Under the pieces are notes generated by a model. That model was given only the letters and a program-made list of their open reading frames with translations. It did not search any database and was not told where the DNA came from. A stretch of DNA of 64,000 nt from Desulfolutivibrio sulfoxidireducens (GTDB taxonomy: Bacteria > Desulfobacterota > Desulfovibrionia > Desulfovibrionales > Desulfovibrionaceae): assembly GCF_013376475.1 (NCBI RefSeq), contig NZ_CP045508.1:310001-374000 (forward strand). Reading direction: 5' to 3'. The first letter of the stretch is position 1. The number at the start of each line of letters is the position of its first letter. Positions 23,756 through 53,023 of the stretch are shown in pieces. Both the position numbers and the translations under genes were made by a program.

Positions 23756-24769
23756 ATGCTGAACAACAAGAAAATCTTGATCACCGGCGGCACTGGTTCA
23801 TTCGGAAAGGCATTCATCAAAACCGTTCTTGAGCGCTACCCCGATGTCAAGCGCCTGGTGGTCTACTCGCGGGATGAATTCAAGCAGTTCGAGATGGAGA
23901 GCGAGTTCAGTCTGAGCAAGTATCCGGCCATGCGCTACTTCATCGGCGATGTCCGCGATTTTCAGCGCCTGAGCCGCGCTCTGGAAGGCATCGAAATTGT
24001 CATCCACGCCGCGGCGCTCAAGCAGGTTCCGGCCGCCGAGTACAATCCCTTCGAGTGCATCAAGACCAACGTGCTTGGAGCCCAGAACCTGATCGATGCC
24101 TGCCTGGATCAAGCCAGCATCAGGCGGGTGATCGCACTGTCCACGGACAAGGCCGCAGCCCCCATCAACCTGTACGGCGCGACAAAGCTTTGCTCCGACA
24201 AGCTGTTTATTGCCGGCAACAACGTCAAGGGGTCGCGCGACATCCGTTTCTCCGTGGTCCGTTACGGCAACGTCATGGGCAGCCGCGGTTCGGTTATTCC
24301 GTTTTTCATGAGCCGGCGATCCACGGGGGTTCTGCCGATCACGGATATGGGCATGACCCGCTTCAACATCAGTTTGCAGGATGGCGTGGACATGGTCCTG
24401 TGGTCCATTGAAAATGCCCGAGGCGGCGAGCTCTTTGTGCCGAAGATCCCCAGTTACCGGGTCATCGACGTGGCCAAGGCCATTGGGCCCGATTGCGAGT
24501 ATCCGGTCGTCGGCGTCCGGCCTGGGGAAAAAATTCATGAAGAGATGATCACCAACAGCGACAGTTTCAATACCGTTGATCTTGGCAAGTACTACGCCAT
24601 CCTGCCGACCACCGGCGAGCATAGCCCCAAGCAGTATTGCAAGCAGAACGGGTGCAAGATGGTGACGCCGGGATTCGCCTACAACAGCGGTACGAACCCC
24701 GACTTTCTTTCGGTCGAGGAACTGCGGGAACTCATCCGGCTGCACGTCGATCCAGATTTTGCGGTGTAA
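23756..24769 (+). CDS. pseB: UDP-GlcNAc 4,6-dehydratase (inverting)
   Basis: 337 residues of the extended SDR class. NAD(P) site ILITGGTGSFGKAF; the region HAAALKQVPAAEYNPFECI and the motif STDKAAAPINLYGATK are characteristic of PseB/FlaA1. The catalytic Tyr is replaced by the family pattern around NLYGATKLCSDKL. It performs the first step of pseudaminic acid synthesis, C4/C6 dehydration with C5 inversion of UDP-GlcNAc. ATG 23756 follows AAGGGA. pseC starts 3 bp after its stop, so the two are co-translated. Start of the plus-strand half of the nonulosonate pathway. Confidence 0.95.
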   Translation: MLNNKKILITGGTGSFGKAFIKTVLERYPDVKRLVVYSRDEFKQFEMESEFSLSKYPAMRYFIGDVRDFQRLSRALEGIEIVIHAAALKQVPAAEYNPFECIKTNVLGAQNLIDACLDQASIRRVIALSTDKAAAPINLYGATKLCSDKLFIAGNNVKGSRDIRFSVVRYGNVMGSRGSVIPFFMSRRSTGVLPITDMGMTRFNISLQDGVDMVLWSIENARGGELFVPKIPSYRVIDVAKAIGPDCEYPVVGVRPGEKIHEEMITNSDSFNTVDLGKYYAILPTTGEHSPKQYCKQNGCKMVTPGFAYNSGTNPDFLSVEELRELIRLHVDPDFAV

Positions 24770-24772
24770 CGC

Positions 24773-25939
24773 ATGATTCCGTATGGTCGCCAACACATCA
24801 CGCAGGCGGACATTGACGCGGTCAAAGCGGTATTGGACTCGGATTTTCTGACCCAAGGGCCCAAGATCCCCGAGTTCGAAGAGCGCGTGGCCGCGTATTG
24901 CGGGGCCAGGCATGGCGTGGCGGTCAACTCGGCCACCAGCGCCCTGCACATCGCCTGCCTGGCCCTGGGCCTCGGACCCGGCGATGTCCTGTGGACCACG
25001 CCCATCACCTTTGTCGCCTCGGCCAATTGCGCCCTGTACTGCGGGGCCCGGGTCGATTTCGTGGACATCGACCCCAGGACCTACAACCTTTGCCCGCAAA
25101 AACTCGAGGACAAACTGAAGATCGCCCGGCGCGACGGCGCGCTCCCCAAGGTCGTTGTTCCGGTCCACCTGTGCGGACAGCCCTGCGACATGCGGGCCAT
25201 CCACGCCCTGGCCCGGGAATACGGCTTCAGGGTCATCGAGGACGCGTCCCATGCCATCGGCGCGCGCTATCACGGGGAACCCGTCGGCAATGGCCGGTAC
25301 AGCGACATCACGGTCTTCAGCTTCCATCCGGTGAAGATCATCACCACCGGGGAAGGCGGCATGGCCGTGACCAATGACGCCGCGCTGGCCGAGGAGATGG
25401 CCCTTTTGCGCTCCCACGGCATCACCCGCGATCCGTCGCGGATGACCCACGCGGCGGATGGCCCGTGGTATTATCAGCAGGTGGCGCTGGGGTTCAATTA
25501 CCGCATGACCGACATCCAGGCGGCCCTGGGCGTCAGCCAGATGGACCGGCTGGATGCGTACGTGGCCGGACGCGGCGCACTGGCGACGCGGTATGACGCG
25601 CTCTTGTCCGATTTGCCTGTGGTCGTCCCCTGGCAGCATCCCGACGGGATGTCGGCGCGGCACCTCTACGTCATCCGTCTCAAGCTGGAGGCGCTCGCCC
25701 GGACCCACGCCCAGGTCTTCGACGCGCTCAAGGACCAGGGCATCGGGGTGAACCTGCATTACATCCCGGTCCACACGCAGCCCTATTACCAGCGGATGGG
25801 ATTTTCGCCCGGGATGTTTCCCGAGTCGGAGGCGTATTATCGCGAGGCCATAACCTTGCCCCTTTTCCCGACCATGACCGAGGAGCAGCGGGACCTGGTC
25901 GTTGCAGCCCTCACGCGGGCGTTGGACGCGCGCCGCTAA
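24773..25939 (+). CDS. pseC: UDP-4-amino-4,6-dideoxy sugar aminotransferase
   Basis: 388 residues of the DegT/DnrJ/EryC1 PLP aminotransferase family. It opens IPYGRQHITQADIDAV and has NSATSALHIACLALGL, VIEDASHAIGA and FSFHPVKIITTGEGG with the PLP-binding Lys; HYIPVHTQPYY closes the active site of the dimer. It transfers an amino group from glutamate to C4 of the PseB product. Full length. Three bases after pseB. The 180-bp gap downstream before the aldo/keto reductase shows no gene. Confidence 0.95.
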   Translation: MIPYGRQHITQADIDAVKAVLDSDFLTQGPKIPEFEERVAAYCGARHGVAVNSATSALHIACLALGLGPGDVLWTTPITFVASANCALYCGARVDFVDIDPRTYNLCPQKLEDKLKIARRDGALPKVVVPVHLCGQPCDMRAIHALAREYGFRVIEDASHAIGARYHGEPVGNGRYSDITVFSFHPVKIITTGEGGMAVTNDAALAEEMALLRSHGITRDPSRMTHAADGPWYYQQVALGFNYRMTDIQAALGVSQMDRLDAYVAGRGALATRYDALLSDLPVVVPWQHPDGMSARHLYVIRLKLEALARTHAQVFDALKDQGIGVNLHYIPVHTQPYYQRMGFSPGMFPESEAYYREAITLPLFPTMTEEQRDLVVAALTRALDARR

Positions 25940-27012: not shown

Positions 27013-27014
27013 CC

Positions 27015-35492: not shown

Positions 35493-36791
35493 CTAAGCCG
35501 GACTTTTCCGGGCGTACTTGGACAGCAGGTAGATGTCCAAGGCGGCCAAAAGCAGATACACCACCACGAAGGCCGCCAGGCTTACGGCCACCTGGGAGGT
35601 GGCGATGGGAGAGACCGCGTCCTTGGTGCGCATAAGGCCGTGAACGATCCATGGCTGCCGTCCCACCTCGGCCACGGCCCACCCGGCCTGAAGCGCCAGG
35701 TACGGCACGGGGATGGCGTAGACCATAAGCCGCAGGTAGCCTGGATTGTCGAGCAGGTTCCCGCGCTTGAGAAATCCCCACGCGGCCAGAAGGATCATGA
35801 GCGTGCCAAGCCCGACCATGAGCCGGAAGGACAGGAAGGTCAGGGTCACGGGAGGCCGGTCCTCGGGGGCGAAGTCCTTTAAGCCCTTGACCTCGGCCGC
35901 GGGGTCGCTGAAGGCCAGGATGCTTAAGAGGCTGGGGATGCCGATGGCCTCGACGCTGTTGCGCTCGTTTTTCTCGTCGGGGATGGTCAGCAGGTACATG
36001 GGCACGTTCTTTCCTGTATCCCAGTGCGATTCCATGGCCGCGAGCTTGGCGGGCTGGATCGCGGCCACCTCGTTGCCGTGGCTGTGGCCCTGCACGGCCA
36101 CCAGGATGGAGGCCACAAGGCCGAACGTCGCGCCGATGCGGAAGGACTTGGTGAAAAAGTCGATGTTGTGCTTGCGCAAAAGGTGCCAGGCGGACACGCC
36201 CATGACGAAGAATCCGGCCAGGGCATAGGCCCCGGTGATGGTGTGGAAGTACTGGCTCCAGGCGAACCCGTTGGTGATGACGTCGAAAAAGCTCGAAAGC
36301 TCGGCCCGGCCGTTTCTTATCTCGTAACCCACAGGATTTTGCATGAATCCGTTGGCCAGAATGATCCACAAGGCCGAAAGGCTGGCGGCAAAGGCCACGA
36401 TCCAGATACAGACCGCGTGAAATTTCTTGGACAGCTTGTCCCAGCCGAAGATCCATACCCCGAGGAACGTGGATTCCAGGAAAAAGGCCGCCGTGGCCTC
36501 GATGGCCAAAAGCGACCCGAAGATGTCTCCGACGTAGGCCGAATAGCGCGACCAGTTGGTGCCAAACTGGAATTCCAGGGTGATGCCCGTGACCACGCCC
36601 AGGGCGAAGTTGATCAGGAACAGCTTGCCCCAGAACTTGGCCATCTTTTTGTACGTCTCGTCGCCCGTGCGCACGTACTTGGTCTCCATGTAGGCCACCA
36701 GGATGGAGAGCCCAAGCGTCAGCGGCACAAAGATGAAGTGAATGAACGTGGCAAAGGCGAACTGCAATCGTGAAAGCATCAGGGTGTCCAT
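35493..36791 (-). CDS. cydA: Cytochrome bd oxidase subunit I
   Basis: 432 residues. The quinol-oxidising, heme-bearing subunit, with LSRLQFAFATFIHFIFVPLTLG (heme b595 His), LLAIEATAAFFLESTFLG (proton-channel Glu residues) and LVAVQGHSHGNEVA; the Q loop is the short form, so the protein is shorter than E. coli CydA (522). GRQPWIVHGLMRTKDAVSP matches the conserved post-loop segment. ATG 36791 with AAAGGAGAG just upstream; the frame open further upstream is an artefact over the regulator gene. It begins one base after the Rrf2 stop, so regulator and oxidase are cotranscribed. Confidence 0.97.
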   Translation of the reverse strand: MDTLMLSRLQFAFATFIHFIFVPLTLGLSILVAYMETKYVRTGDETYKKMAKFWGKLFLINFALGVVTGITLEFQFGTNWSRYSAYVGDIFGSLLAIEATAAFFLESTFLGVWIFGWDKLSKKFHAVCIWIVAFAASLSALWIILANGFMQNPVGYEIRNGRAELSSFFDVITNGFAWSQYFHTITGAYALAGFFVMGVSAWHLLRKHNIDFFTKSFRIGATFGLVASILVAVQGHSHGNEVAAIQPAKLAAMESHWDTGKNVPMYLLTIPDEKNERNSVEAIGIPSLLSILAFSDPAAEVKGLKDFAPEDRPPVTLTFLSFRLMVGLGTLMILLAAWGFLKRGNLLDNPGYLRLMVYAIPVPYLALQAGWAVAEVGRQPWIVHGLMRTKDAVSPIATSQVAVSLAAFVVVYLLLAALDIYLLSKYARKSPA

Positions 36792-39482: not shown

Positions 39483-40526
39483 TTAGTCGAACATGTCCCA
39501 ACTGACGGGCGTGCCTTTCTTGACCGGCCTGGAGACCTTTTTGCCGATCAGGATGTCGTAGTATTTCGGCGGCAGGCCGTGCCCTGGGCGCACGCGCCGC
39601 AGGTTGCGCGGGGTCAGCGCGTCGCCGGCCTGAAGGTCCTCCCCGACATACAGGGAGCGCCGCCGGGTGACGGACCTGACTTCCGCCGTGGTCGGGCCAT
39701 AGGATATCCCGCCCAGGGCCAGCCAGGCCCTTTCCGATTCCACCGCCAGGCTGGCCAGCTCCGCGGGCTCCAGGGAAAAGGTCGAATCCACGCCGCCATC
39801 GGCGCGCGACAGGGTGAAATGCTTTTCAATGATGGTCGCCCCGCAGGCGATGGCCGCGATGGACGCCCCGATGCCCATGGTGTGGTCGGACAACCCGACT
39901 TCGCATTGGAACAGGTCGCGCATGTGGGTGATGGTGCGCAGATTGGTGTTTTCGGGAGAGCAGGGATAGGTGCTGGTGCATTTGAGAAGCGCCAGATCAC
40001 GGCAGCCGGCCGCCCTGGCGGTCTCCACGGCCTCGGCGATCTCCCGGACGGTGGCCATGCCGGTTGAGATGATAAGCGGTTTTCCGGTTGCGGCGGCCTT
40101 GCGCACAAGCGGCAGATCGACGCATTCGAACGAGGCGATCTTGTAGCATGGCGCGTCCAGGGTCGTAAGGAAATCCACCGCGCTTTCATCGAACGGCGAA
40201 CTGAAGCACATCAGTCCATGGGACCTGGCCCGCTCCATGATCGGCGCGTGCCATTCCCACGGGGTGTACGCCTGCTGGTAGAGGGCATGCATGGATTGCC
40301 CTTTCCAGAGCGAATTCGGATCACTAATGAAAAATTCCCCATCCGTCAGATCCAGGGTCATGGTTTCCGCGGTGTAAGTCTGGAGCTTCACCGCATGGGC
40401 CCCGGCCCGGGCCGCCGCGTCCACTATCGCCAAGGCCCTGTCCAAAGACTGATTGTGGTTTCCGGACATCTCCGCGATGAGAAACGGTGTGTGCGCGAGA
40501 TCTATTTCCCGATCCTGTATTTTCAT
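39483..40526 (-). CDS. pseI: Pseudaminic acid synthase
   Basis: 347 residues of the NeuB/PseI family. Residues 1-270 form the TIM barrel: FLIAEMSGNHNQSLDRALAIV, AVKLQTYTAETMTLD, MCFSSPFDESAVDFL, YKIASFE, ALLKCTSTYPCSPENTNL, GLSDHTMG and ATIIEKHFTLSR. The C-terminal SAF domain (about 285-347) has RRSLYVGEDLQAGDALT and RPGHGLPP. It condenses the 2,4-diacetamido sugar with phosphoenolpyruvate. ATG 40526 begins the conserved part; GTG 40541 is possible. Last gene of the minus-strand half of the pathway, 16 kb from pseBC. Confidence 0.95.
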   Translation of the reverse strand: MKIQDREIDLAHTPFLIAEMSGNHNQSLDRALAIVDAAARAGAHAVKLQTYTAETMTLDLTDGEFFISDPNSLWKGQSMHALYQQAYTPWEWHAPIMERARSHGLMCFSSPFDESAVDFLTTLDAPCYKIASFECVDLPLVRKAAATGKPLIISTGMATVREIAEAVETARAAGCRDLALLKCTSTYPCSPENTNLRTITHMRDLFQCEVGLSDHTMGIGASIAAIACGATIIEKHFTLSRADGGVDSTFSLEPAELASLAVESERAWLALGGISYGPTTAEVRSVTRRRSLYVGEDLQAGDALTPRNLRRVRPGHGLPPKYYDILIGKKVSRPVKKGTPVSWDMFD

Positions 40527-40606
40527 GGTCGTCGTGCCCACGCTTTATTTAGAGGTATCAAATGCGTCCACATGGATGCAACACTCAAGAAGCCATATAC
40601 GACGGA

Positions 40607-41509
40607 TTATAAGCCATCATCCACGTCACGCATGTCCCGCAACGCCTCTGTCAGCGTCCATTGCGGTTGCCAGTTCATATCACGAAGGGCCTTGTGGCAA
40701 TCCATGACATAGCGAGTCTGGTCTTCATTCTCAACGTGTTTGTGTTCCACGTTGACCTTGCCGTCGAGAAACGCCGTGCTCACGGCGGTGGCGAGCTCAC
40801 AGACGCTATAGCCTCGGGAACTGCCGATATTGTAGGCGCCCGAGGCCGCTTCGGATACGAGGGCCGCCTCGAAGGCGGACAGGACATCCTCAAGGTAGAT
40901 GAAATCGCGCACCGCCAAGCCTTGTCCAAAGACGGTCACCTTGCCGGCCGTGCGCGCCTGCTCGATAAACCGGAACACGACGCCGCGCTTTTTGGGATCA
41001 GGCCCGAAAATCTGTCCGAGCCGCAGCGAAACGCTTGTCCAGTTGTATTTCCGGGCATAGATGCGCAAAAGATCCTCGCCAACCCTCTTGCTCAAGCCGT
41101 ACATGGTGTCCGGCTCATGCGGGCAGGTTTCCGTGCACACGTCCGGGCACCAACCCGGATAGACCAGCCTGGACGAGGCAAAAACGAGCCGGGGCACACC
41201 GGATTCCGACACGATTCGGGCAATATCCTCCGTCAGGACGATATTTGAGGGGATATAGGCCTGAAGCGGTTCGGAAAGGCTTGCCACTTGCCGCGCGGCA
41301 AGATGGACAACGGCATCGGAACCGGAGATATGGCGCGCAAGAGAGGCCTGCGTCGAATCAATGCCATTCCCGGTCTGGATGTCGATGGCGCGGTAGGTAT
41401 CTTCCTTGTCGCACCGCGTCAGTCCGATAACGGCGTGGCCGCTCTTGGTCAGACGCCTCGCGAGATGCATGCCGATAAAGCCCCGCGCGCCGGTGATGAC
41501 AATTTTCAT
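40607..41509 (-). CDS. NAD-dependent epimerase/dehydratase
   Basis: 300 residues of the extended SDR family. KIVITGARGFIGMHLARRL binds NAD(P); VFASSRLVYPG and YGLSKRVGED supply the catalytic Ser and YxxxK; GQGLAVRDFIYLEDVLSAFEAAL and GAYNIGSSRGYSV are typical of nucleotide-sugar epimerases. Substrate unknown. It sits between pseI and the ATP-grasp gene with short gaps, so it belongs to the same transcript and may make another sugar of the same glycan. ATG 41509. Confidence 0.87.
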   Translation of the reverse strand: MKIVITGARGFIGMHLARRLTKSGHAVIGLTRCDKEDTYRAIDIQTGNGIDSTQASLARHISGSDAVVHLAARQVASLSEPLQAYIPSNIVLTEDIARIVSESGVPRLVFASSRLVYPGWCPDVCTETCPHEPDTMYGLSKRVGEDLLRIYARKYNWTSVSLRLGQIFGPDPKKRGVVFRFIEQARTAGKVTVFGQGLAVRDFIYLEDVLSAFEAALVSEAASGAYNIGSSRGYSVCELATAVSTAFLDGKVNVEHKHVENEDQTRYVMDCHKALRDMNWQPQWTLTEALRDMRDVDDGL

Positions 41510-41527
41510 AACGTATTCCTGGAAGAA

Positions 41528-42649
41528 TTATCCTTTCAAGATGTAGTACCCGACCTTCTCAATGATCCCGTTCGTGGGACGCACCTTTTGCCCGTCGGTG
41601 TACAAAAAGTGCTGATAGACGCAGTTCGCGTCCGCCGGCAGGGCGTGTAGGCTTTTTTGAAACGTCTCTCCGGTTTTCTGCAGGAAGAACCACAGCGAAT
41701 AGGGAGTGGTGGGTTCAGGAACATCCGCATACTGCCAGGGCAGGCCCAGAAGGCGGTTAAAGCACGCGGCGATGAGGTTGACGCCGGTATAATATTCGAC
41801 AACCCGCCACATGTGGCATCCGTCGAGACGCGGCGCGATTTCAATGATTTTCGGACCATGCTCCTTGCTCAACTTCATCTGGAAGTACAGCGGACCGTTG
41901 GCGACCTTCAGGTGGCTGACGCAGGATTCCACGAGGTCTCGCACCCGCGGCAGCATGTCTTTGGACGTGAAGTGCGAGGGAAGGACATGCCCAGTGGGAA
42001 CGCCCACAGCGGGACCCTCCCACGTGTGCCGATCAGAGGGCTGAAAGAAGACGAGCTTGGAATCGACGACAAAGGCGTGGACCGAAATTTCCGGACCGTC
42101 GATGAGCTCCTCGATGATGGCCTCACTGGTCTTGGAGGCGGCAAAGCTTTGCGGAACGAGCCGCGCAGCCTCTTCCACCGATTCAACAATGAATATGCCG
42201 CGCTGCCCCTGGCTGTCGGCTGGTTTCAAAATAGCCGGAAACGTGTGGAATTTGTACAAATCCTCGACCGTCCGTAATTTCTGAAAGCTGGTGGTGCTGA
42301 TGTTGTGATCATTGAGAAATTGTCGCGTTAACACCTTCCTGTGCAAAATACTTGTCGTCTCAGAATTATGAAAGCATGGCAGGCCAAGAGTTTCGCTCAC
42401 CCTGGCCACCGTGGGCATGGCGATGTCGGACCCGACGGAATACACCACGTCGGCCTTGATGTCTCTCGCAAGCTCTGTAACTTTTTCAATGTTTAATATA
42501 TCCACGAGATAAAAATGATCCGCAGTGGCCACCCCAGGACCCTCCTGGACATGGCCGCACGCGGAGACAAGCCAGCCGTTGTCCTTCAACCATTCCATGG
42601 CCTCGGCCTGACCGGCCAAAGTCCCAAGTATTAATGCATGCTTTTTCAT
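41528..42649 (-). CDS. ATP-grasp enzyme
   Basis: 373 residues. The N-terminal domain has LILGTLAGQAEAMEWLKDNGW and a Rossmann-like pattern; the ATP-grasp core shows FPAILKPADSQGQRGIFIVES (ATP-binding Lys and glycine loop), AIIEELIDGPEISVHAFV and KIIEIAPRLDGCHMW (metal-binding region, in place of the usual E.N.R). Such ligases join a carboxylate to an amine or thiol. In nonulosonate clusters they may attach an amino acid or other acyl group to the sugar. ATG 42649 is chosen because MKKHALILGTLAG starts the fold. Confidence 0.83.
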   Translation of the reverse strand: MKKHALILGTLAGQAEAMEWLKDNGWLVSACGHVQEGPGVATADHFYLVDILNIEKVTELARDIKADVVYSVGSDIAMPTVARVSETLGLPCFHNSETTSILHRKVLTRQFLNDHNISTTSFQKLRTVEDLYKFHTFPAILKPADSQGQRGIFIVESVEEAARLVPQSFAASKTSEAIIEELIDGPEISVHAFVVDSKLVFFQPSDRHTWEGPAVGVPTGHVLPSHFTSKDMLPRVRDLVESCVSHLKVANGPLYFQMKLSKEHGPKIIEIAPRLDGCHMWRVVEYYTGVNLIAACFNRLLGLPWQYADVPEPTTPYSLWFFLQKTGETFQKSLHALPADANCVYQHFLYTDGQKVRPTNGIIEKVGYYILKG

Positions 42650-42735
42650 ACTATTCCCTTTTTTGAGATTGCTCTTCAAGCAAGCGGGCTGGGTACTGGG
42701 TCATTCGTAAGGTAAATCTCCTGACCCGACAATCA

Positions 42736-43791
42736 TCAATATCCAGCGAGCATTTCCGTAACGATCCTCACGGAGCCTTGGCCATCGATTAATTTTCTAA
42801 CGCGAGTTGAAAAAGACGCCCGGAGATCTCCATTGTGAAAAAAAGCATTCATGTCATCATCGAACTTTGTTGGCAAGCGTCCATTGAAGTGTCCGGAATA
42901 TAATGCATACTCGAGTTCTCCCAACCTGGGAGCGACTCTGAGCTGATTGTCGGCATAGCTCAACAGAATGCAAGGCACGCCCATAGTGAAGGCTTCCCAT
43001 ACCGTTGATCCTCCGGCCAGAACGGCAACATCCGACCAATCCATGAGACCTGGCATATCATCGGGGGAGTGAAGCACCTCAAACCTTCCAGTGTGGGAAT
43101 CCGCCATTTTTTCAAGCATCTTGACATGCTGACTTGCCGGACCAAGAACGATTTTACAATGCAATGGAGCTGGAAATTCCATAAAAAATTGAATGACAGC
43201 ACCGGTGACATTGTCTGGATCACTCCCCCCAAGACTCACCAAAACGTTGCGTAAGGGTTGAGAGGCCAGTCTCTGCCTTGGGGTATATGATGTGAACTCC
43301 GGCCTGATCGGAAGATACTCAAGCCCAAGAAGCAGCTTTGTCCGTGGCTCCCTGGCTGTATAATACTCTTCCCGCGCGTAGATATTCGGGTTTAAGAGGA
43401 TATGCGCATAATTATGCTGCGGACTGCCAAGCGCGTCGATCAACATGAGGCCAAAAAAATCCGTATAGACTCTTTTCTGATATTCGGTTCCGAATGGATA
43501 CCCGTCAACAATGAGCCATGAAGCGCCTAATTCTTTGACAATGGAAAGGGTCTGAGCCGCGTCAACCAGGCTTGCCGCATCGGCGTGCATGTATTTGTAG
43601 GCAAACTGATATGATTGGAACAACTTTTCGATCTGTCGAGGAAGAGGAGTGAGAAGAAAATGCACTTGTTTTCCGCATTGGCGCAACCTCCGGGCGATTG
43701 TCAGACAGCGCATCAAATGTCCAATGCCGATGCGTTCACCAGCATCAACCCGAACCGCAAAGACGTTATCATTTGTATTCATTGCATTCAT
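42736..43791 (-). CDS. pseG: UDP-6-deoxy-AltdiNAc hydrolase
   Basis: 351 residues of the PseG/SpsG GT-B family. VFAVRVDAGERIGIGHLMRCLTIARRL is the diagnostic N-terminal loop with the catalytic His; WLIVDGYPFGTEYQKRV, NVLVSLGGSDPDNVTG and DVAVLAGGSTVWEAFTMGVPCI follow. It removes UDP from the diacetamido sugar before PseI acts. ATG 43791 or ATG 43782 could be the start; no strong ribosome site precedes either. First gene of the minus-strand run pseG, ATP-grasp, epimerase, pseI. Lower GC than the cyd block. Confidence 0.92.
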   Translation of the reverse strand: MNAMNTNDNVFAVRVDAGERIGIGHLMRCLTIARRLRQCGKQVHFLLTPLPRQIEKLFQSYQFAYKYMHADAASLVDAAQTLSIVKELGASWLIVDGYPFGTEYQKRVYTDFFGLMLIDALGSPQHNYAHILLNPNIYAREEYYTAREPRTKLLLGLEYLPIRPEFTSYTPRQRLASQPLRNVLVSLGGSDPDNVTGAVIQFFMEFPAPLHCKIVLGPASQHVKMLEKMADSHTGRFEVLHSPDDMPGLMDWSDVAVLAGGSTVWEAFTMGVPCILLSYADNQLRVAPRLGELEYALYSGHFNGRLPTKFDDDMNAFFHNGDLRASFSTRVRKLIDGQGSVRIVTEMLAGY

Positions 43792-44381
43792 GATTAAGAA
43801 ATGTTAATGTTGCACAAAATATATGGTTTTTGCCGGTAGTGAAAAGAATTTTAAAGTTCCTTGTTACATAAAAATACCAAGCGGCAGAATTTTCATGAAC
43901 ATACGTATTTAAAAAAATTTGGCTTGGTTCGCGGTGGTGGTTATCGTTGCGAAACTCATTGATCCCTCAAACCGCAAAAGTCGCGAAAAAGGGGATGGTT
44001 TCAGTGGGGATCAACTCTTTTCGCGAACAGTGCCAAAAAGTTTCAACGCGTCTCCTGTCCAGGAATCTTGAAATGCTGCCAACGCTGAACAGGGGAATGC
44101 CGGGAATTTTCCAAGTCCACCCGTGTGAGGTCAGAAAGTTGCGGGTAAGCATATCGGCTGCTGGTGTGGCGTTCCGTAAATGAATATGCATTTCCATGGG
44201 GGAAAAGTCGCTATTTCCCGTGGCGTGGCAAAAATCCATATTTCAGGATAATGCACTGCTTCTTGCGGAACCTGACACTAGCGGCAAACCTTACAAAACG
44301 AAGGAGCCCGGGAAGGGCTGAAAGCCATTGCCTGCCCATACTGGCTGCGAAAAGGGTATCGAGGGCGATTGTCATACGGAA
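43792..44381. other. AT-rich intergenic region without supported gene
   Basis: 590 bp with only short open frames on both strands and no recognised protein fragment. Should include the promoter for pseG transcription. Confidence 0.4.
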
Positions 44382-47258
44382 CTATATATCCCAATCCGGG
44401 GTTTTGAAGTTGAGTTGGGCGGCAAGGTCCGGTTCCCACTTGTTTTTATTGAGCATCATGTCGACATGTGATTGCTTTGCAGGCGATGTGCGCAAAACGT
44501 CTGTCGATTTTTGCAATTTGTGATAGACGATTGCGGAGGTTGTCTGAAGAATTTTCAATTTGAAAATATGACGAACAATATCGCAGAATATTCGGTCCGA
44601 ACGATAATGTCGACCATGCTCGGCATCGAGGCCTTGTGTTCGATCGATCACCTCTCGTTTTATGTAGGCACAGAAAAAAGGAGCAAATGATAGTTCCAGA
44701 ATTTTGCCAGAATGAAAGACAGGAACATTTATTATGTTGTCATGATGCGCGGATGGTGTAACATCACATTCATATTCAGGATTGACATACGGTACATGTA
44801 TATCAAGTGTCTTTGTGCCTCCGTATAATACCTGTTGCGGTACAACGACAGCGCATTCAGGGAATTCATGAGCTGTTGTCTGCAATATTTCTACAGAACC
44901 GGAAGTCAATAATGCATCATTGTTCAAAATAAGTATGTCTCTTCCTGGCCAGGAAGCGGAAAGTCCTTGATTAATCGCAAGTGAAAAACCAAAATTGACT
45001 GTGTTTGCGACCAGTGTGATATGATTTTCTTTTTCAAGTTTAGTGAGATATTCAATGACAGGCTTTCCTGATCCATTGTCTACGACAATGATTTCTGTCC
45101 AATCAGAGATTTTGAATGCCAAGATGGTGTCGATGCATTCGGTAAGATCAACCAACGACTCAAAGCTTGGTATGATGATGGATACTTTTCTTTTTGGACT
45201 ATAGTTGTTGTTCTTGTTTTTGAGTCTGTTTCGTAACCTGGTTTTTCGTTTTTCGTGTACAATTTTAGTTTGAGACACATCCAAGGTTTCTCGTGATCCA
45301 AAAGTTGCAATTGTATCTGAATATAGCTTTGTTAAAATAGAAGGAATAGAATAGATGGTGAAGTCTTCGCAAGCTCTCAATATGAAATCCCACTCAGCAT
45401 AAGGTGAAATGAGGTCGCTGTACTTTCCAAGATGTTCGAAACAATATTTTTTGTAGATGAAAGAACCATGTTCAATGTAATTTTTGTTCGCAAGAAGTGA
45501 CTTGTTAAGCGCTCCGAAACGAACGGCGAAAGGCTTCAGCGACTGACTCCGTTGAAGATATTGGCCACAATAGACCGCGTCCGCGTCAGGTAATTTTTGA
45601 AAAGCGCCAACCATCGCTGCGATATATCGTTTATCCCAAACAGTGGAATCATCAAGGTTTGCTATATACATTCCATTCGCAGTATTTATGGCGCGATTTA
45701 AGCAATGACTTTTCCCATAATGCTTCTTGTTTTGATATATTTTAATTTTTGAGCTGCACATTTTTCGAAGAAGATCACGCGTCGCATCAGTACTGAAGTC
45801 ATCTATAATAATGATTTCAGTATGAGCATAAGACTGATCGAGCGCGGTTTGAAGAGTGGTTTCCAAGGTCTTGGCACTGTTGAAGACGGGAAGGATGATG
45901 GAAACCATTGGAGCATTGCTCATGGCTTCGGATGCGGAAGCCAAATCATCGGCGATATTCTCCATAACACCGAAGCATCGTTTATCTTCTTCGCGAAAAG
46001 GGGACAAAAGAAGCGGCATGGTCACCGAATGCGAGAGAAATCCAGAGAAATCCTTAAAAGCTCGAGAAATGCGCCATGTTTGCCGCGCCTCGTCAAGGAC
46101 AACTCGTGATCGCTTGTCAAGCAGTTTTACATGATGTGTTTTCCCGTCGGTAAACTTGAGCGGAACAATCAGTTCAAATCCAAAATACCCGGATTCGGTA
46201 TGTGCTACATCGGCACACGGAATATTGCCTTGGACTTCTGTGCTGAAATGATCATCTATCTGAACGATTGCGGTTGGGTTCATGCTCGCATCGGGCAGGC
46301 ACAGCCATCCTCTGAGGATGGTCTCTGACTTGATGTTCGGCAGGATTTTCCCCTGGGGTGCATGTGTATGTAAAGACTTTTGCGTAAGTGCCGGGTTGGG
46401 GGAGCCTGGCAATGAGGCCGACACGGGAGACTGAGATTTGTTATTTTCAAAAGTCCGGTCTTCTCCTTGGATTTGCCTTTCTCGGCCTGGATTGACCGTA
46501 CTTGTATGCATTACAAACGAGGAAATATACTCCGACCATGTTTTTTTGAAAAGTTCCTGATGTTTTTCAGATGATTCCAGAATGGACTTTGAAGTGGAAA
46601 TCTGAAGGCTCATGGTGTTGATGCAAAAGCACTGTTTATGTAATTCTCTGTGCAGACGAAGGCAAAAATCAATATCTCCAAATCCATTGTTGAAGGCAGT
46701 GCTAAATCCATTGAGAGATTGAAAGTCTTCATTGCGGCAGACAAGAAATGTACCTGACAAGGCTGGAAATATATTTTTCGTTTTTTGCTCACGGATGCAG
46801 TGGGGTTGAAAAGAATCATGTTTTTCATCCCAGGCGAACTGAATTCCGGAATGAAGAATGTTCGCGCTTTTTCCAGTCGGTTGCGCATCGACAAGGTTTA
46901 CCCCTACGGCGCCAATTTTAGAATCAGCAAGTGTCGAAAGAGCCAAAGGTATGACATCCGACGTGTAAACTATGCCACTATCCATAAAGAGCAAGTTTGG
47001 ATGCGTGGCCTGGGAAGCTGCATAATTATATGATAAATAAAGAGATGTTGTTTTTGCAAAGGACAGGTGTCTGATGAACCCTTTCGTCGCGTATTTTGAT
47101 GAAATACGCCGAGTGCTTTTTCTGGATTCGCTTTCAATTATGAGTATTTCGAATGATGTATGCGAATTGGTTTGAAAAAAAGAATTCAGAAGAGCATCCA
47201 GGTTCTGCTCATCGTCCTGAAGAGAAATAAGTATGGATATTCCGTACATTGACTGCAT
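44382..47258 (-). CDS. Multi-domain family 2 glycosyltransferase
   Basis: 958 residues with three GT-A-like segments. Segment 1 (about 5-225) reads ISILISLQDDEQNLDALLNSF with a GDIDFCLRLHRE region. A GW-type beta domain (about 315-395; RGWLCLPDAS, GYFGFELIVPLKFTDGKTHH) comes next. Segment 2 (about 450-670) has MVSIILPVFNSAKTLETTLQ, IIIIDDFSTDATRD and ANLDDS as a DXD-like site. Segment 3 (about 690-958) has VSIIIPSFESLVDLTECIDTI, VDNGSGKP, NFGFSLAINQG and ILNNDA. It probably adds two or more sugars to a surface or flagellar glycan. ATG 47258 or 47249; neither has a clear ribosome site. AT-rich codon use unlike the neighbours at 53 kb. Confidence 0.82.
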   Translation of the reverse strand: MQSMYGISILISLQDDEQNLDALLNSFFQTNSHTSFEILIIESESRKSTRRISSKYATKGFIRHLSFAKTTSLYLSYNYAASQATHPNLLFMDSGIVYTSDVIPLALSTLADSKIGAVGVNLVDAQPTGKSANILHSGIQFAWDEKHDSFQPHCIREQKTKNIFPALSGTFLVCRNEDFQSLNGFSTAFNNGFGDIDFCLRLHRELHKQCFCINTMSLQISTSKSILESSEKHQELFKKTWSEYISSFVMHTSTVNPGRERQIQGEDRTFENNKSQSPVSASLPGSPNPALTQKSLHTHAPQGKILPNIKSETILRGWLCLPDASMNPTAIVQIDDHFSTEVQGNIPCADVAHTESGYFGFELIVPLKFTDGKTHHVKLLDKRSRVVLDEARQTWRISRAFKDFSGFLSHSVTMPLLLSPFREEDKRCFGVMENIADDLASASEAMSNAPMVSIILPVFNSAKTLETTLQTALDQSYAHTEIIIIDDFSTDATRDLLRKMCSSKIKIYQNKKHYGKSHCLNRAINTANGMYIANLDDSTVWDKRYIAAMVGAFQKLPDADAVYCGQYLQRSQSLKPFAVRFGALNKSLLANKNYIEHGSFIYKKYCFEHLGKYSDLISPYAEWDFILRACEDFTIYSIPSILTKLYSDTIATFGSRETLDVSQTKIVHEKRKTRLRNRLKNKNNNYSPKRKVSIIIPSFESLVDLTECIDTILAFKISDWTEIIVVDNGSGKPVIEYLTKLEKENHITLVANTVNFGFSLAINQGLSASWPGRDILILNNDALLTSGSVEILQTTAHEFPECAVVVPQQVLYGGTKTLDIHVPYVNPEYECDVTPSAHHDNIINVPVFHSGKILELSFAPFFCAYIKREVIDRTQGLDAEHGRHYRSDRIFCDIVRHIFKLKILQTTSAIVYHKLQKSTDVLRTSPAKQSHVDMMLNKNKWEPDLAAQLNFKTPDWDI

Positions 47259-47614
47259 AGTAAAAATTACTTTTCTAAATCATTACTTGAAGCAAAGAAT
47301 CTGTAAGAGGACTGCTCTTCGAACAATTAGAAATCCAGAATCAGTTTGACAACAGCGGTGTGCTCATATTTATTTGAGCCAATTGATATGTCTCAGGGCA
47401 AGAAATACTTATCGCTCCGCACACGACAAGGTGGCTGGCTGGCTTGATGCTCATCGGTTCGCGAGGGCAAAGTCTTGAATATAAAGTGCTCCCGGTGATA
47501 TTGTAAAATTGGCCGCTATTCCTGTCGTACTTCCAAGCAAAAGAGAATTCATGCATAAATCTAATGTGATGAAATATTGGCAAACGCAGGACTAGTGGGT
47601 AAGATAAGAGCAAA
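47259..47614. other. Intergenic region without supported gene
   Basis: 355 bp, AT-rich. A minus-strand open frame of about 100 codons crosses into the 3' end of the sulfotransferase-coiled-coil gene but encodes nothing I recognise. Confidence 0.35.
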
Positions 47615-50600
47615 TTATTGCCCGGCGTTGAGCTTTTTCTGTTCCTCTTTCGATAGATATTCAAAATACTGGCGTGTCAGGTTTTCTTGTTTGGCGAGTT
47701 TGTCTTTTAAGTCTTCAATCATGGACGTGTAATTATTAAAAATTTTTTGAGTATCTACATTTCGAACAGAATCAATGCCTCGTTGCGCTATTCTTCGAAT
47801 TTCTGAAACTAAATCTTTCATTGCATCATTATTAGAATGCAGATTCCTGTTCGCCTGCGTGGCAAGTTTTATGTCTTTATCGTACAGTGCCCGCGTTTCA
47901 TTTAATTCATTTTGGTATTGTAGGGAACTTTTCTGAAGTCCAGATAATTCATTCTGTAGTTTATTGATATGCTCAAGTGCTGCTGATGTGCTGTTTTCGC
48001 GTTCACGAATGCAGGCCTTGAGGTTTTGAATTTCTTGTTCGTGCTGCAATATGGAGTCACTAAGGGCCTGTTCTTGAGAATGAATCTGTTCCTGGAAGGT
48101 CACGGATTCGTGTTGCAAGGATTTGATCATCCTGGTTGCGGCGGCTATGTCCGCATCGCGCTCGGCGATGGCGACCTGGGCGGCCGCAAGCTCGGTCTCG
48201 CGGTGCGCCAGAGCCTGACGGACCTCATCCTCGCGTAGCGCCAGGGCCTGACGGACCTCATCCTCGCGGGCGACGGCGCACTCCGCAAGCGCGGCCATCT
48301 CCGTGCGCAGCGCGTCGAGCTGCCCGGTTGCGGCGGCTATGTCCGCATCGCGCTCGGTGATGGCGACCTGGGCGGCCGCAAGCTCGGTCTCGCGTAGCGC
48401 CAGGGCCTGACGGACCTCATCCTCGCGTAGCGCCAGGGCCTGACGGACCTCATCCTCGCGGGCGACGGCGCGCTCCGCAAGCGCGGCCATCTCCGTGCGC
48501 AACGCTTCGAGCTGCCCGGTTGCGGCGGCTATGTCCGCATCGCGCTCGGCGATGGCGACCTGGGCGGCCGCAAGCTCGGTCTCGCGAAGCGCCAGGGCCT
48601 GACGGACCTCATCCTCGCGAAGCGCCAGGGCCTGACGGACCTCATCCTCGCGGGCGACGGCGCGCTCCGCAAGCGCGGCCATCTCCGCGCGTAGCGCGTC
48701 GAGCTGCCCGGTTGCGGCGGCTATGTCCGCATCGCGCTCGGCGATGGCGTCCCGGGCGGCCCCAAGCTCGGACTCGCGGTGCGCCAGTTCCTTTTGGCTT
48801 GCGGCGGCCTGGGCCTGAAGCGCGGTTATCTCCGTGCGTAACGCATCGAGCTGCCCGGTTGCGGCGTTTATGCCCGCATCGCGCTCGGTGATGGCGACCC
48901 GGGCGGCCGCAAGCTCGGACTCGCGGTGCGCCAGTTCCTCTTGGCTTGCGGCGGCCTGGGCCTGAAGCGCGGCTATCTCCGCGCGTAACGCATCGAGCTG
49001 CCCGGTTGCGGCGTTTATGCCCGCATCGCGCTCGGCGATGGCGTCCCGGGCGGCCGCAAGCTCGGACTCGCGGTGCGCCAGTTCCTCTTGGCTTGCGGCG
49101 GCCTGGGCCTGAAGCGCGGCTATCTCCGTGCGGAGCGCATCGAGCTGCCCGGTTGCGGCGGCTATGTTCGCATCGCGCTCGGCGATGGCGTCCCGGGCGG
49201 CCGCAAGCTCGGACTCGCGGTGCCCCAGTTCCTCTTGGCTTGCGGCGTCCTTGGCCTGAAGCGCGGCTATCTCCGTGCGGAGCGCATCGAGCTGCCCGGT
49301 TGCGGCGTTTATGCCCGCATCGCGCTCGGCGATGGCGTCCCGGGCGGCCGCAAGCTCGGACTCGCGGTGCGCCAGTTCCTTTTGGCTTGCGGCGTCCTTG
49401 GCCTGAAGCGCGGCTATCTCCGTGCGGAGCGCATCGAGCTGCCCGGTTGCGGCGTTTATGCCCGCATCGCGCTCGGCGATGGCGACCTGGGCGGCCGCAA
49501 GCTCGTTCTCGCGCAGCGCCAGGGCCTGACGGACCTCATCCTCGCGGGCGACGGCGCGCTCCGCAAGCGCGGCCATCTCCGTGCGGAGCGCATCGAGCTG
49601 CCCGGTTGCGGCGTTTATGCCCGCATCGCGCTCGGCGATGGCGACCTGGGCGGCCGCAAGCTCGTTCTCGCGCAGCGCCAGGGCCTGACGGACCTCATCC
49701 TCGCGGGCGACGGCGCGCTCCGCAAGCGCGGCCATCTCCGCGCGGAGCGCGTCGAGCTGCCCGGTTGCGGCGGCTATGTCCGCATCGCGCTCGGCGATGG
49801 CGACCTGGGCGGCTGTAAGCTCGGCCTCGCGCAGTGCCAGGGCCTGACGGACCTCATCCTCGCGGGCGACGGCGCGCTCCGCAAGCGCGGCCATCTCCGC
49901 GCGGAGCGCGTCGAGCTGCCCGGTTGCGGCGGCTATGTCCGCATCGCGCTCGGCGATGGCGACCTGGGCGGCTGTAAGCTCGGCCTCGCGCTGTGCCAGG
50001 GCCTGACGGACCTCATCCTCGCGGGCGACGGCGCGCTCCGCAAGCGCGGCCATCTCCGCGCGGAGCGCGTCGAGCTGCCCGGTTGCGGCGGCTATGTCCG
50101 CATCGCGCTCGGCGATGGCGACCTGGGCGGCTGTAAGCTCGGCCTCGCGCAGTGCCAGGGCCTGACGGACCTCATCCTCGCGGGCGACAGCCTGCGACTG
50201 AAATTCATGGATCGTTTGTCGAAGAGACTCTACTTCTTCCTTTGTCGTGGAAATGATGCTGGAATATTCCGCGATGGAATGCTGTGTGCTTTTCAGTTCT
50301 CGTATATATTTTTGGTGTTCCTGTTCCAGATCGGATAGTTGTTGAAGGGATTGACGGTGCTGAAGAACATTTTGATCCCATGTTTCCTTCAGGTTGGACA
50401 AAGACCTCTCAAACATGATCCAAATCTGCAAACGCATGGGTTTATCAGGTAAATCAGGAAGAACGGGAAGAAAAATTTGAGCGTCGCTACCCGTCGAGCA
50501 TGCGATAAATGAAGCATCGTTTTCCACGACCAACAGTCTGTTATTGGTTGTGAGCGATTTGAATCCATCGGCATCATTGGCTGACCAAAGGACGGCATCG

Positions 50601-51829
50601 CTTGTTTCGTCAAGAAGTCTCAATGTGGAAATAAAGATCATCCCGATATGATTGAGCGGATCGATGCGGAGTGAATGCTGACGCAGGAGAGCTGGCGAAG
50701 GTATGAAAACCGAAAGCTCTTGCCATTCGCTTGATAACAACAAATATTTCTCCGATAAATCGGATGAATAGCGGGTTTGTCCGTCGTCGTCGTTCGGGAA
50801 AAAGACCTGTGCGTAAAATGTTTGTTGTTGAAGATCGGACAAGATGAGTCGCCGTTGACGTTGTATTTTGATGTCAAGATTGTCCTGTTCGTGGTTGCGT
50901 ATGATTGAGAGCAAATTGTCGAACATTGCCGAAGCATTGTTCGTTTCGGGACTGGAAAGACAGGCCGGATTCTCCCCGATCAACGGAAAATTTTGTACCG
51001 CCAAGGATTGCCCGATGGTGGTGCAGGAAATGGCCCGTGTGTCTTCATGGAAATCCGATACAGGCTCCAGGGCGTTGATCTGGCTCAGTCGGAGTTGGTT
51101 ATAAAGCCATTCGTAAGGCTTAAAGAGATCATCAATATGACTCGGAACAGTATGATGTTTCAATTCTGGTTTGACATATTCGAGTAATTGAAAAATATGC
51201 TGGGTTGATTGCGTCTCAAGGGGAAAACGAAAAGTATCTGCAAAATAATGTATAGAATCAACAGGGTCGGCAAGAAGTTCGTCAAACGACAAGACGAAGA
51301 AATGGAATCCTTGAAGATTCGCAATGGCCTCACGGGTGTGGGTCAACCACAGAAGATGCCCATTCAGCATCTCGGCGCCAGTGGTTGTGCGAAGTGATTG
51401 CGCAACCTCGTGAGGATGACGAATCATCAGGATGCAACGGGGCTTGATCCCGACCGTTTCACATATTTCCCTCCACAGGGGAAGGAAACGGCACAGCCTT
51501 GGGTCGGCCACAGCGCATGGGTATGATCCGGAAAACTCCGTTTCAAACAAATTCAGAATTCTTTCCTTGGCGATCCGTGCAGCCTCGCTTTGCAACCAGT
51601 CCTCGGGAAGACCTCCTATCATATCCCAACTGCATCGCAGATCGCGGAATAACATATCGTGGGCCAGAGAGAAGGACTGGTTGTAAAAGCCCGGGGAGGT
51701 CGCGGGATCAGCGGATTGCACGATATTGACGCCAAAATCGACGCCCAGCCGGTGCAGGCAGCCGCTTAACACGGACAGCCCGGATCCGCGCATGCCCAAG
51801 AGAAGGAGAAGTTCTTTCATGTTGTCCAT
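47615..51829 (-). CDS. Sulfotransferase-like domain fused to long repetitive coiled coil
   Basis: About 1404 residues. The N-terminus has a sulfotransferase/P-loop pattern, LLLLGMRGSGLSVLSGCLHRLGV, then CILMIRHPHEVAQSLRTTTG and FFVLSFDELLADP (PAPS-type contacts). About residues 310-460 look beta-rich and non-conserved. From about 490 it is coiled coil, including some 13 near-identical units with AxREDEVRQALALRExEL, AAAQVAIAERDADIAAATGQLDAL; it ends in a non-repetitive coil (SLQKSSLQYQNELNE). It may sulfate a glycan or act as a tethered scaffold. ATG 51829 is preferred; GTG 51856 is possible. The repeat is GC-rich inside an otherwise AT-rich gene. Confidence 0.78.
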   Translation of the reverse strand: MDNMKELLLLLGMRGSGLSVLSGCLHRLGVDFGVNIVQSADPATSPGFYNQSFSLAHDMLFRDLRCSWDMIGGLPEDWLQSEAARIAKERILNLFETEFSGSYPCAVADPRLCRFLPLWREICETVGIKPRCILMIRHPHEVAQSLRTTTGAEMLNGHLLWLTHTREAIANLQGFHFFVLSFDELLADPVDSIHYFADTFRFPLETQSTQHIFQLLEYVKPELKHHTVPSHIDDLFKPYEWLYNQLRLSQINALEPVSDFHEDTRAISCTTIGQSLAVQNFPLIGENPACLSSPETNNASAMFDNLLSIIRNHEQDNLDIKIQRQRRLILSDLQQQTFYAQVFFPNDDDGQTRYSSDLSEKYLLLSSEWQELSVFIPSPALLRQHSLRIDPLNHIGMIFISTLRLLDETSDAVLWSANDADGFKSLTTNNRLLVVENDASFIACSTGSDAQIFLPVLPDLPDKPMRLQIWIMFERSLSNLKETWDQNVLQHRQSLQQLSDLEQEHQKYIRELKSTQHSIAEYSSIISTTKEEVESLRQTIHEFQSQAVAREDEVRQALALREAELTAAQVAIAERDADIAAATGQLDALRAEMAALAERAVAREDEVRQALAQREAELTAAQVAIAERDADIAAATGQLDALRAEMAALAERAVAREDEVRQALALREAELTAAQVAIAERDADIAAATGQLDALRAEMAALAERAVAREDEVRQALALRENELAAAQVAIAERDAGINAATGQLDALRTEMAALAERAVAREDEVRQALALRENELAAAQVAIAERDAGINAATGQLDALRTEIAALQAKDAASQKELAHRESELAAARDAIAERDAGINAATGQLDALRTEIAALQAKDAASQEELGHRESELAAARDAIAERDANIAAATGQLDALRTEIAALQAQAAASQEELAHRESELAAARDAIAERDAGINAATGQLDALRAEIAALQAQAAASQEELAHRESELAAARVAITERDAGINAATGQLDALRTEITALQAQAAASQKELAHRESELGAARDAIAERDADIAAATGQLDALRAEMAALAERAVAREDEVRQALALREDEVRQALALRETELAAAQVAIAERDADIAAATGQLEALRTEMAALAERAVAREDEVRQALALREDEVRQALALRETELAAAQVAITERDADIAAATGQLDALRTEMAALAECAVAREDEVRQALALREDEVRQALAHRETELAAAQVAIAERDADIAAATRMIKSLQHESVTFQEQIHSQEQALSDSILQHEQEIQNLKACIRERENSTSAALEHINKLQNELSGLQKSSLQYQNELNETRALYDKDIKLATQANRNLHSNNDAMKDLVSEIRRIAQRGIDSVRNVDTQKIFNNYTSMIEDLKDKLAKQENLTRQYFEYLSKEEQKKLNAGQ
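48132..50190. repeat. Coding tandem repeat, about 13 units of 147-192 bp
   Basis: Three unit types: 53 residues (AVAREDEVRQ type), 49 residues (AASQxELAHRESEL type) and 64 residues (with an internal 11-residue duplication REDEVRQALAL). Order from the N-terminus is five of the first, five of the second, three of the third. Many units are identical at the DNA level, indicating recent expansion or gene conversion. Confidence 0.92.
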
Positions 51830-51859
51830 TGGTGTCCGCTTGATGTGACAAGCCACGTC

Positions 51860-53023
51860 TTACTGATTTCTTTGTTCGAAATCGGAAATGAGGGTTTCAA
51901 TCTCCATGAGATTGGCAGCGCTTTCGTTCAACAAAGAATGCAGCAATTCCACCTCTTCGGCCAGTCTTGTCTTTTCTTTGGTCAAAGCGGCGATTTTTTT
52001 TGCAAAGCTGTCCTTCTCTTTCACGCACAAGGCAAGCGATTGATCCTTCTGGGTCTCGATTTTGTGTATATGGTGCAGAATTGGGTCAAAATTCTGAACA
52101 AAAACGGATTTATCAAGGCAGTACTCTTCATCTTCATGACGGGCGGTGATGGCGACAATGTTTCTTTTACGGTGCAGCTTTTCAAGTGGAATTTTGAATG
52201 TGAAACCGTGTTTCCCGGCAATATTGTATCTTTTGTTCAAGTCCGAACGATTTTCGATCGTTGGAGGAATTGATAGCTTCGCTCCATTCAGATACATCAT
52301 GAGTTGCAGTTGTTGCGAGGGCGATGAGATGCCATACGCCCATCCTCTGGCAAAATAGGGTTGAAATTCATCAATTTTATAATGTATAGCGTTGAGTTCT
52401 TTTGAAAGGAGGATGTCCTCGACAAGTATTTCGTGCGAATCCGAGACAGTTAACCGAAGAGTATGCGATGCGCCATCGTAGTACCGAAGTGGAAGCAATC
52501 GGTGAAAACCATGCGTACCCTGGATGGAGTATTCCTGATTCACGTCCGTTCGCAGGACGTCTGTCGAGAATTCATCCACCAAGACGGTATCAATGAAAAT
52601 CTTCAGCGAAGTGTGTTCGGAACTCGAATTCGTGTTGAATATCCAGCCGCAAAGGCCAGACCCGTCAAGAGATTCGATCCGGTATGTGAAATTGTACGAT
52701 GGGAACGCAAAAACATGACGCTCGATGAGAACTTCCTTGGTACCCTCACGAACAAAAAGCGAGACCGGATGCTTTTCGCCATTGAAAAAGCGAAGAGGTA
52801 CTTGAACCGAGAACCCATGTAACCCGGTAATGTTATGCTTGGAGTTCAAATCGACACGGCGGAGGTTGGTTGGAGAATCATAGAGCACATGATCATCGAT
52901 TACAATTTTGATGTCTGTTGAGCGAGTGCTCTCATTGGCGTGATATATCCATCCCTTGAGGGAACTTTGAATAAGCCCGTCGAGATTGTATCTATACTTC
53001 GACTTTTTTGAGAAAATCAGCAT
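51860..53023 (-). CDS. Protein with three GW beta-type repeats and a C-terminal coiled coil
   Basis: 387 residues. Three repeats of about 101 residues begin with a Gly-Trp at 24, 126 and 227 (KGWIYHANE, CGWIFNTNS, RGWAYGISS) and share R.DLN..YNI.G.HGF...VPLR(Y/F)..G..H. The same domain occurs once in the GT2 protein at 44382. Residues 318-387 form a coiled coil (KKIAALTKEKTRLAEEVELL). No signal peptide. I do not recognise a named family; predicted beta-strand content and position between glycosyl-modifying enzymes suggest a glycan-binding or scaffold module. Ends 30 bp before the sulfotransferase start, so co-transcribed. Confidence 0.72.
   Translation of the reverse strand: MLIFSKKSKYRYNLDGLIQSSLKGWIYHANESTRSTDIKIVIDDHVLYDSPTNLRRVDLNSKHNITGLHGFSVQVPLRFFNGEKHPVSLFVREGTKEVLIERHVFAFPSYNFTYRIESLDGSGLCGWIFNTNSSSEHTSLKIFIDTVLVDEFSTDVLRTDVNQEYSIQGTHGFHRLLPLRYYDGASHTLRLTVSDSHEILVEDILLSKELNAIHYKIDEFQPYFARGWAYGISSPSQQLQLMMYLNGAKLSIPPTIENRSDLNKRYNIAGKHGFTFKIPLEKLHRKRNIVAITARHEDEEYCLDKSVFVQNFDPILHHIHKIETQKDQSLALCVKEKDSFAKKIAALTKEKTRLAEEVELLHSLLNESAANLMEIETLISDFEQRNQ

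Follow-up and report, generated by a model that had tools for sequence, protein, structure and literature searches.

A widespread, unnamed accessory domain in a three-repeat protein and a glycosyltransferase of a pseudaminic acid cluster of Desulfolutivibrio sulfoxidireducens

Two of the closest described systems come from O-antigen assembly. WbdD uses a coiled-coil ruler and recruits WbdA. WbdD controls the chain length of the O-antigen at the cytoplasmic membrane, and the Wzm-Wzt O-antigen exporter has a non-catalytic carbohydrate-binding part that recognises the polysaccharide (PMC3482155 and PMC9445017, respectively). Here we describe a domain encoded in a stretch of 64,000 nucleotides of Desulfolutivibrio sulfoxidireducens (contig NZ_CP045508.1, positions 310,001 to 374,000 of the forward strand), which is called the window below and is numbered from its first letter. 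The domain, designated the GW-type or GW-RxD-HGF domain, is present three times in a protein of 387 amino acids (aa), SC, and once in a glycosyltransferase family 2 (GT2) protein.

By proposed role, the carbohydrate-binding domain of Wzm-Wzt and the pair WbdD/WbdA are functional analogues. However, the GW-type domain showed no sequence match to the Pfam families of such carbohydrate-binding domains, and SC matched no kinase or methyltransferase family in Pfam, having Ig-like beads instead. With the Listeria-type GW modules the domain shares the letters GW only; those modules have a different, SH3-like fold, and no Pfam match to them was obtained in SC or in 129 copies of the domain.

The domain in the SC and GT2 proteins

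The preliminary description of this DNA had reported three repeats of about 100 residues in the protein at 51860-53023 and one more diverged copy inside the GT2 protein at 44382-47258. A hidden Markov model (HMM) was built from 125 copies of the domain, leaving out those of the window to avoid circularity, and E-values were calculated for a genome of 4000 proteins (Z=4000). This external HMM recovered all four copies (independent E-values, iE, below; ORF, open reading frame; pLDDT, predicted local distance difference test).

51860..53023, minus strand: SC protein, 387 aa, three GW-type domains and a C-terminal helix (ORF, HMM domains, AlphaFold2 model)
52697..52990, minus strand: GW-type domain copy 1, aa 12-109 of SC, iE 2.3e-14, AlphaFold2 pLDDT 94.5
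52394..52684, minus strand: GW-type domain copy 2, aa 114-210 of SC, iE 3.5e-12
52085..52381, minus strand: GW-type domain copy 3, aa 215-313 of SC, iE 1.5e-9
51866..52024, minus strand: predicted long helix of SC, aa 334-386 (53 residues), AlphaFold2, coiled coil by appearance
44382..47258, minus strand: GT2 protein, 958 aa, Pfam Glycos_transf_2 at 3e-49 in three stretches
46065..46352, minus strand: GW-type domain copy in the GT2 protein, aa 303-398, iE 2.6e-5

No further match was found among the 494 ORFs of the window at E≤1. As a control, reversed ORFs were searched with the same HMM, and none of 8116 matched at 1e-3 (best 0.2), against 150 of the 8116 forward ORFs. The GT2 copy was also aligned to SC by BLASTP (7e-8 in the pairwise comparison, 1.3e-4 in a whole-genome search), and the significant alignment of this copy that had been set beforehand as a check was obtained. 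The four window copies are one family, as claimed for the two proteins at the outset.

All genes named in the preliminary description lie on the minus strand. In SC, where the domain is about 98 residues long, the GW pairs stand at aa 24, 126 and 227 and the HGF triplets at 69, 171 and 272, giving a periodicity of about 101 residues. The full signature of G-W, R-x-D and G-x-H-G-F is present in all three SC copies and in part in the GT2 copy. The longer motif first given for the repeats is present but looser than written (DLN/DVN/DLN, HNI/YSI/YNI and VPL/LPL/IPL in the three copies), and the repeats do not begin with GW, which occupies domain residues 13-14. In the GT2 protein the domain follows a GT2-like N-terminal part and is itself followed by more GT2 parts. 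Elsewhere in this genome, at a distance of about 3 Mb, another GT2 protein carries a fifth copy.

The family is defined here by a profile of 129 copies (A5), with just 13-37% identity to copy 1. Over these copies the residues W14, F60, D47, H58, R45, G13 and G56 stand out. Because the DNA pattern used for collecting most of the copies fixes part of this signature, conservation was determined again on 36 outside copies not matching the pattern in a protein version that had been made slightly wider. W14, R45 and D47 were present in 36/36 of these, G13 in 97%, G56 in 94%, F60 in 92% and H58 in 69%. This is a partial control, as the 36 copies were themselves found by profile, often beside a matching copy. 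The window copies are divergent members, without the AG-x-G-D-G run.

AlphaFold2 modelled copy 1 (129 rows) with a mean pLDDT of 94.5 and a predicted template modelling score (pTM) of 0.82, as an Ig/FN3-like beta-sandwich with strands at residues 2-7, 10-14, 26-31 and 34-40, a helix at 46-52, and strands at 59-63, 73-82 and 85-95. A beta-type domain had been proposed, with structure prediction as one of the checks, and the model agrees with it. The best VIA Z score was 7.5, with many FN3/Ig folds tied, and the leading fibronectin rows had a root mean square deviation of 2.2-2.3 over 75-77 residues. Since a Z score of this level is common for unrelated models, the predicted fold is called an Ig/FN3-like arrangement and nothing narrower. 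From FN3/Ig-like domains the GW-type domain differs in the extra helix 46-52 and in the W / R-x-D / G-x-H-G-F signature, and no Pfam FN3 match was found in the 129 copies.

The model of full-length SC (35 rows, pLDDT 84.1, pTM 0.48) consists of three beads and the helix 334-386, the block pLDDT being 89-95 from residue 341 and 57 in the preceding block. With a pTM of 0.48 the orientation of the beads is not fixed by the model. SC contains no strongly hydrophobic segment (the top 19-residue hydropathy mean is 0.93). The scaffold-like nature first ascribed to SC fits this predicted arrangement of three beads and a 53-residue helix.

In a FastTree phylogeny of the copies, SC repeats 1-3 formed a clade (0.952), which points to triplication inside SC. 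The GT2 copy grouped with a copy from Azospirillum (0.884) and one from Chelatococcus (0.687), and the SC and GT2 copies all fell within one group of ten copies (0.807). A close kinship of the GT2 copy with the SC repeats was thus not supported, as it is not their nearest relative in the tree. The G + C content of SC (44%) and of the GT2 protein (42%) is much lower than that of the window (59%) and of three genes sampled outside the island (64-66%), which is what one would expect of a glycan island gained by horizontal transfer.

Searches for named families, distribution and domain company

Among the 24736 Pfam models, none matched SC at E≤1 and none was found in more than one of the 129 copies at E≤0.01; carbohydrate-binding families were absent at both thresholds. 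Six families matched one copy each, none of them FN3. One was the bacterial Ig model Big_15 (0.0029), and all six were rejected as not reproducible across copies, as were MalQ_N (0.012) and the CBM-like PF14683 (0.2), each seen in 1 of 15 copies. NCBIfam gave two chance-level matches to SC (0.047 and 0.079) and none to the 15 copies at 0.1, and PHROGs gave a single match (0.21). Nothing convincing was found among PDB sequences; the matches of the family profile to MRPS5 (8.4e-4, 57 positions) and a fluorinase (5e-3, 28 positions) were short motifs in unrelated proteins and were dismissed as chance overlap. Annotated phage records contained no match to the typed consensus, and the best match in BFVD (3.1e-4) was an uncharacterised siphovirus protein.

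The statement that no named family matches therefore holds for Pfam, NCBIfam, PHROGs and PDB sequences, and no reproducible HMM match to a characterised domain of other function, another check set beforehand, was found in these libraries. Literature searches turned up no title or abstract opening describing the domain. As far as these sources show, "undescribed" stands.

Searches with whole SC were weak and sparse. Relatives were found in 4 of 59 genomes (own included) and none in the collection of genome contigs; the best match elsewhere was a 1926-aa GT2-like ORF of another genome (G033), with four copies of the domain. Profiles were used instead. A four-copy profile was positive in 8 of 149 genomes of the family to which the organism belongs (at 0.01) and a 15-copy profile in 6 of 297 genomes of its phylum (at 1e-3), own included in both counts. 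Among plasmid records 68 were matched by the canonical copy and 125 by the typed consensus, chiefly from Sinorhizobium, then Azospirillum, Ensifer and Paracoccus. The DNA pattern matched at least 120 stretches in genome contigs, and the 15-copy profile confirmed the domain in 120/120. When these were taken together with viral and three further plasmid loci, the domain was present in 127 of the 128 loci L043-L170, with 187 copies in 147 ORFs (read from stop to stop and cut where the stretches end). The record titles are mostly alphaproteobacterial, with Alteromonas, Thioalkalivibrio, Acidobacteria, Thermomicrobiales, Cytophagaceae and an Actinomycetota bin in addition. In twelve genomes picked for holding a pattern match, the number of copies ranged from 1 to 10. 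Among 190 genomes of the Alphaproteobacteria, the class to which Stella belongs, at least 13 were positive (centre genome included), a lower bound as scoring was limited to the 26 best candidates of each genome. The domain is widespread and scattered across Alphaproteobacteria and other phyla. It does occur in proteins of this cluster, as first described, but it is not special to them, being found on many glycan-cluster proteins elsewhere. In two contigs of the viral collection (L043 and L045) the domain is carried by Hint_2 proteins; their viral origin is the label of the collection only.

In a random 76 of 129 non-redundant ORFs, the Pfam families found in the same protein as the domain were (among the best 25 of 32 families, GT-A and GT-B counts possibly overlapping) Glyco_trans_1_4 (24), Glycos_transf_2 (19), Hint_2 (12), Glycos_transf_1 (8) and Sulfotransfer_3 (2), together with TPR families. 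Ten hand-picked proteins, all carrying the domain or, in the case of L041:8654-10867, encoded next to it, contained Formyl_trans_N (L019), GNAT (L008 and L042), radical SAM (L007), WbsX (L032), sulfotransferase and GT2 (L031), TPR (L005) and GT2 (L028); no Pfam family was found in L029 and L041:8654-10867. Six of the seven plasmid loci opened were situated among glycosyltransferases, sugar-nucleotide genes or exporters. The seventh, outside glycan clusters, was a Curtobacterium protein annotated as S53 peptidase, which had no Pfam family at 1e-3. A Blastocatellia protein combined BACON and laminin-G with three GW-type domains, and other carriers had Hint, TIG or, below cut-off, PKD domains. 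The proteins with Hint, BACON, laminin-G or TIG look secreted.

Tandem runs of two or three copies were seen 33 times. Free-standing domains with a coiled coil were recognised by eye in Alteromonas (L082, L118 and L124), Methylomagnum (L170), Sinorhizobium (L041) and Phyllobacterium (L169), the last two having a hydrophobic C-terminal segment. This suggests that SC is one of a recurring kind of protein. By eye, the tails of L118:2436-2909, L082:1233-1739 and L170:7644-8849 resemble one another around a coiled-coil stretch containing IQ, and this shared tail may mark an adaptor subfamily common to the Alteromonas and Methylomagnum proteins.

The pseudaminic acid cluster

SC and the GT2 protein are encoded in one window with the following genes.

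47615..51856, minus strand: CC protein, 1413 aa, sulfotransferase-like N-terminal part followed by a very long coiled coil
42736..43791, minus strand: PseG-type hydrolase, TIGR03590 at 215.6 bits (cut-off 153.55)
39483..40541, minus strand: PseI pseudaminic acid synthase, TIGR03586 at 479.9 bits (cut-off 340.25)
23756..25939, plus strand: PseB and PseC, TIGR03589 at 518.8 bits (cut-off 407.75) and TIGR03588 at 566.5 bits (cut-off 423.5), respectively

With PseB, PseC, PseG and PseI above curated cut-offs, this is taken to be a pseudaminic acid biosynthesis cluster. A PseH-like ORF scored 60.8 bits against a cut-off of 93.1. At 27560-29710 (plus strand) a single ORF joins a cytidylyltransferase domain (Pfam) to a class III aminotransferase resembling glutamate-1-semialdehyde aminomutase; PseF was not among the best 25 of its 73 NCBIfam rows. 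The pseudaminic acid genes lie in two blocks on opposite strands, 23756-29710 (plus) and 39483-53023 (minus), with an ORF for cytochrome bd subunit II (34327-36456) between them. The cluster was also considered as a flagellin glycosylation island, which was not supported, no flagellin gene being adjacent; distant flagellins may still be glycosylated.

The CC ORF as listed starts 3 bases past the stop codon of SC, although the true start may differ from the listed one. CC is similar to its relatives up to about aa 494, after which it consists of a long run of near-identical coiled-coil repeats. Its N-terminus matched no Pfam family at 0.01. Two homologues matched Sulfotransfer_3 at 20-21 bits, below the cut-off of 27, and a CC paralogue gave no match. 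Homologues of the N-terminal part were found in 7 of 59 genomes, own included. The paralogue lies at C1:816632-817570, beside an ORF resembling the first part of the GT2 protein, so that the pairing of CC with a GT2-like protein recurs within this genome; BLAST at 1e-6 did not detect it in three relatives at the loci that encode CC (L196, L197 and L198). This second cluster (L194, C1 806001-825000) also encodes a TPR protein and lies next to ORFs resembling MotA/MotB. In a relative from another family (L200), a stand-alone protein with two copies of the domain is followed by a sulfotransferase-like gene resembling the CC N-terminus (28% over 127 residues, 1e-8), a gene pair that echoes SC and CC.

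Glycan recognition, docking or spacing as possible roles

SC probably acts in the cytoplasm, as an adaptor of the machinery for pseudaminic-acid glycans whose genes lie alongside its own. More specifically, and tentatively, we read the domain as a non-catalytic glycan-recognition module and SC as a soluble adaptor carrying it. In each domain the face used for recognising a sugar chain would lie around the conserved W, the beginning of the R-x-D helix and the loop G-x-H-G-F. The copy in the GT2 protein would keep the growing chain or the acceptor glycan close to the catalytic parts, and the three beads of SC would provide avidity for the glycan or its carrier. The coiled coil of SC may serve in oligomerisation or in docking on the adjacent coiled-coil CC protein, and SC would in this way keep the substrate at the transferases of the cluster. 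Glycan recognition is favoured because the module travels with varied glycan chemistry and sits by known binding domains in secreted-looking proteins; glycans as one class of ligand would suit the cytoplasmic enzymes and the BACON/laminin-G proteins alike.

Several observations weigh against glycan recognition. We infer glycan binding from the company of the domain, and the same data would fit a docking or spacer module. Foldseek found no match in the PDB at E≤1e-3 (best 0.026), and in the VIA and Foldseek fold lists no carbohydrate-binding or other named family stands out, although this alone is no proof. The G, F and D residues may be conserved for structural reasons alone. In the GT2 copy R45 is replaced by C and H58 by F, with G-W, D, G and G-F kept. 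No full-length relative of SC was found in the 59 genomes searched (own included), other matches covering at most about 185 residues, and the role of SC is thus without backing from conservation. Finally, there is no flagellin gene near the cluster: of seven flagellin places in the genome the nearest is at 664 kb, and the window lies at 310-374 kb.

Protein-protein docking is a close second to glycan recognition, although somewhat unlikely taken by itself. Copies on SC and on the enzymes would bind one another, or all bind a shared partner, and in this way bring the glycan machinery together without touching sugar. The predicted FN3/Ig-like beads and coiled coil resemble an assembly part; SC, CC and the GT2 protein are clustered, SC and CC being 3 bases apart as listed; and the domain is found on GT-A and GT-B enzymes, WbsX, GNAT, formyl transferase, radical SAM and sulfotransferase proteins, chemistries that differ so widely as to suggest a shared partner rather than a shared substrate. 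On the other hand, the tree does not place the GT2 copy as sister of the SC repeats, though both belong to the ten-copy group (0.807), a single match was found in 8 of 24 distinct positive genomes (two surveys, in one of which not every candidate was scored), and Hint, BACON, laminin-G and TIG domains accompany the module in what seem to be secreted proteins, away from any such complex. Ig/FN3-like beads often serve as spacers, and if the domain placed the catalytic parts, as a structural spacer or a folding unit with no specific binding of its own, this would account for the internal and terminal positions in many architectures and for the 33 tandem runs. We consider this improbable, as a signature of W, R-x-D and G-x-H-G-F kept fixed at 13-37% identity to copy 1 is more than a spacer needs, and a free-standing protein of three beads has little to space. 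The reading of the four copies as a repeat of this cluster restricted to its lineage, without relatives of any kind, was suggested by the 4 of 59 genomes and the empty contig search obtained with whole SC. It is refuted and retains hardly any probability, as profiles find the domain across phyla and the external profile recovers all four window copies.

The GW-RxD-HGF domain is real, widespread and modelled with confidence, an accessory domain that has an ordinary fold and no name. A broader proposal, to which we give a rather low probability, is that it serves the assembly of bacterial surface glycans in general as a module for glycan recognition, and that SC-like proteins, with counterparts in the glycan clusters of Alteromonas, Methylomagnum, Sinorhizobium and Phyllobacterium, form a new class of cytoplasmic or membrane-tethered scaffold holding the growing glycan and its enzymes together. 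As this widespread accessory domain is unnamed in the libraries searched, "hypothetical" genes in polysaccharide clusters have been left unread, and with the 129-copy profile A5 such genes can now be sought in a systematic way. A domain that binds sugar would explain how soluble glycosyltransferases keep hold of the product they are extending, and would supply modules for glycan engineering; a domain that docks proteins would explain how multi-enzyme complexes are put together by these clusters.

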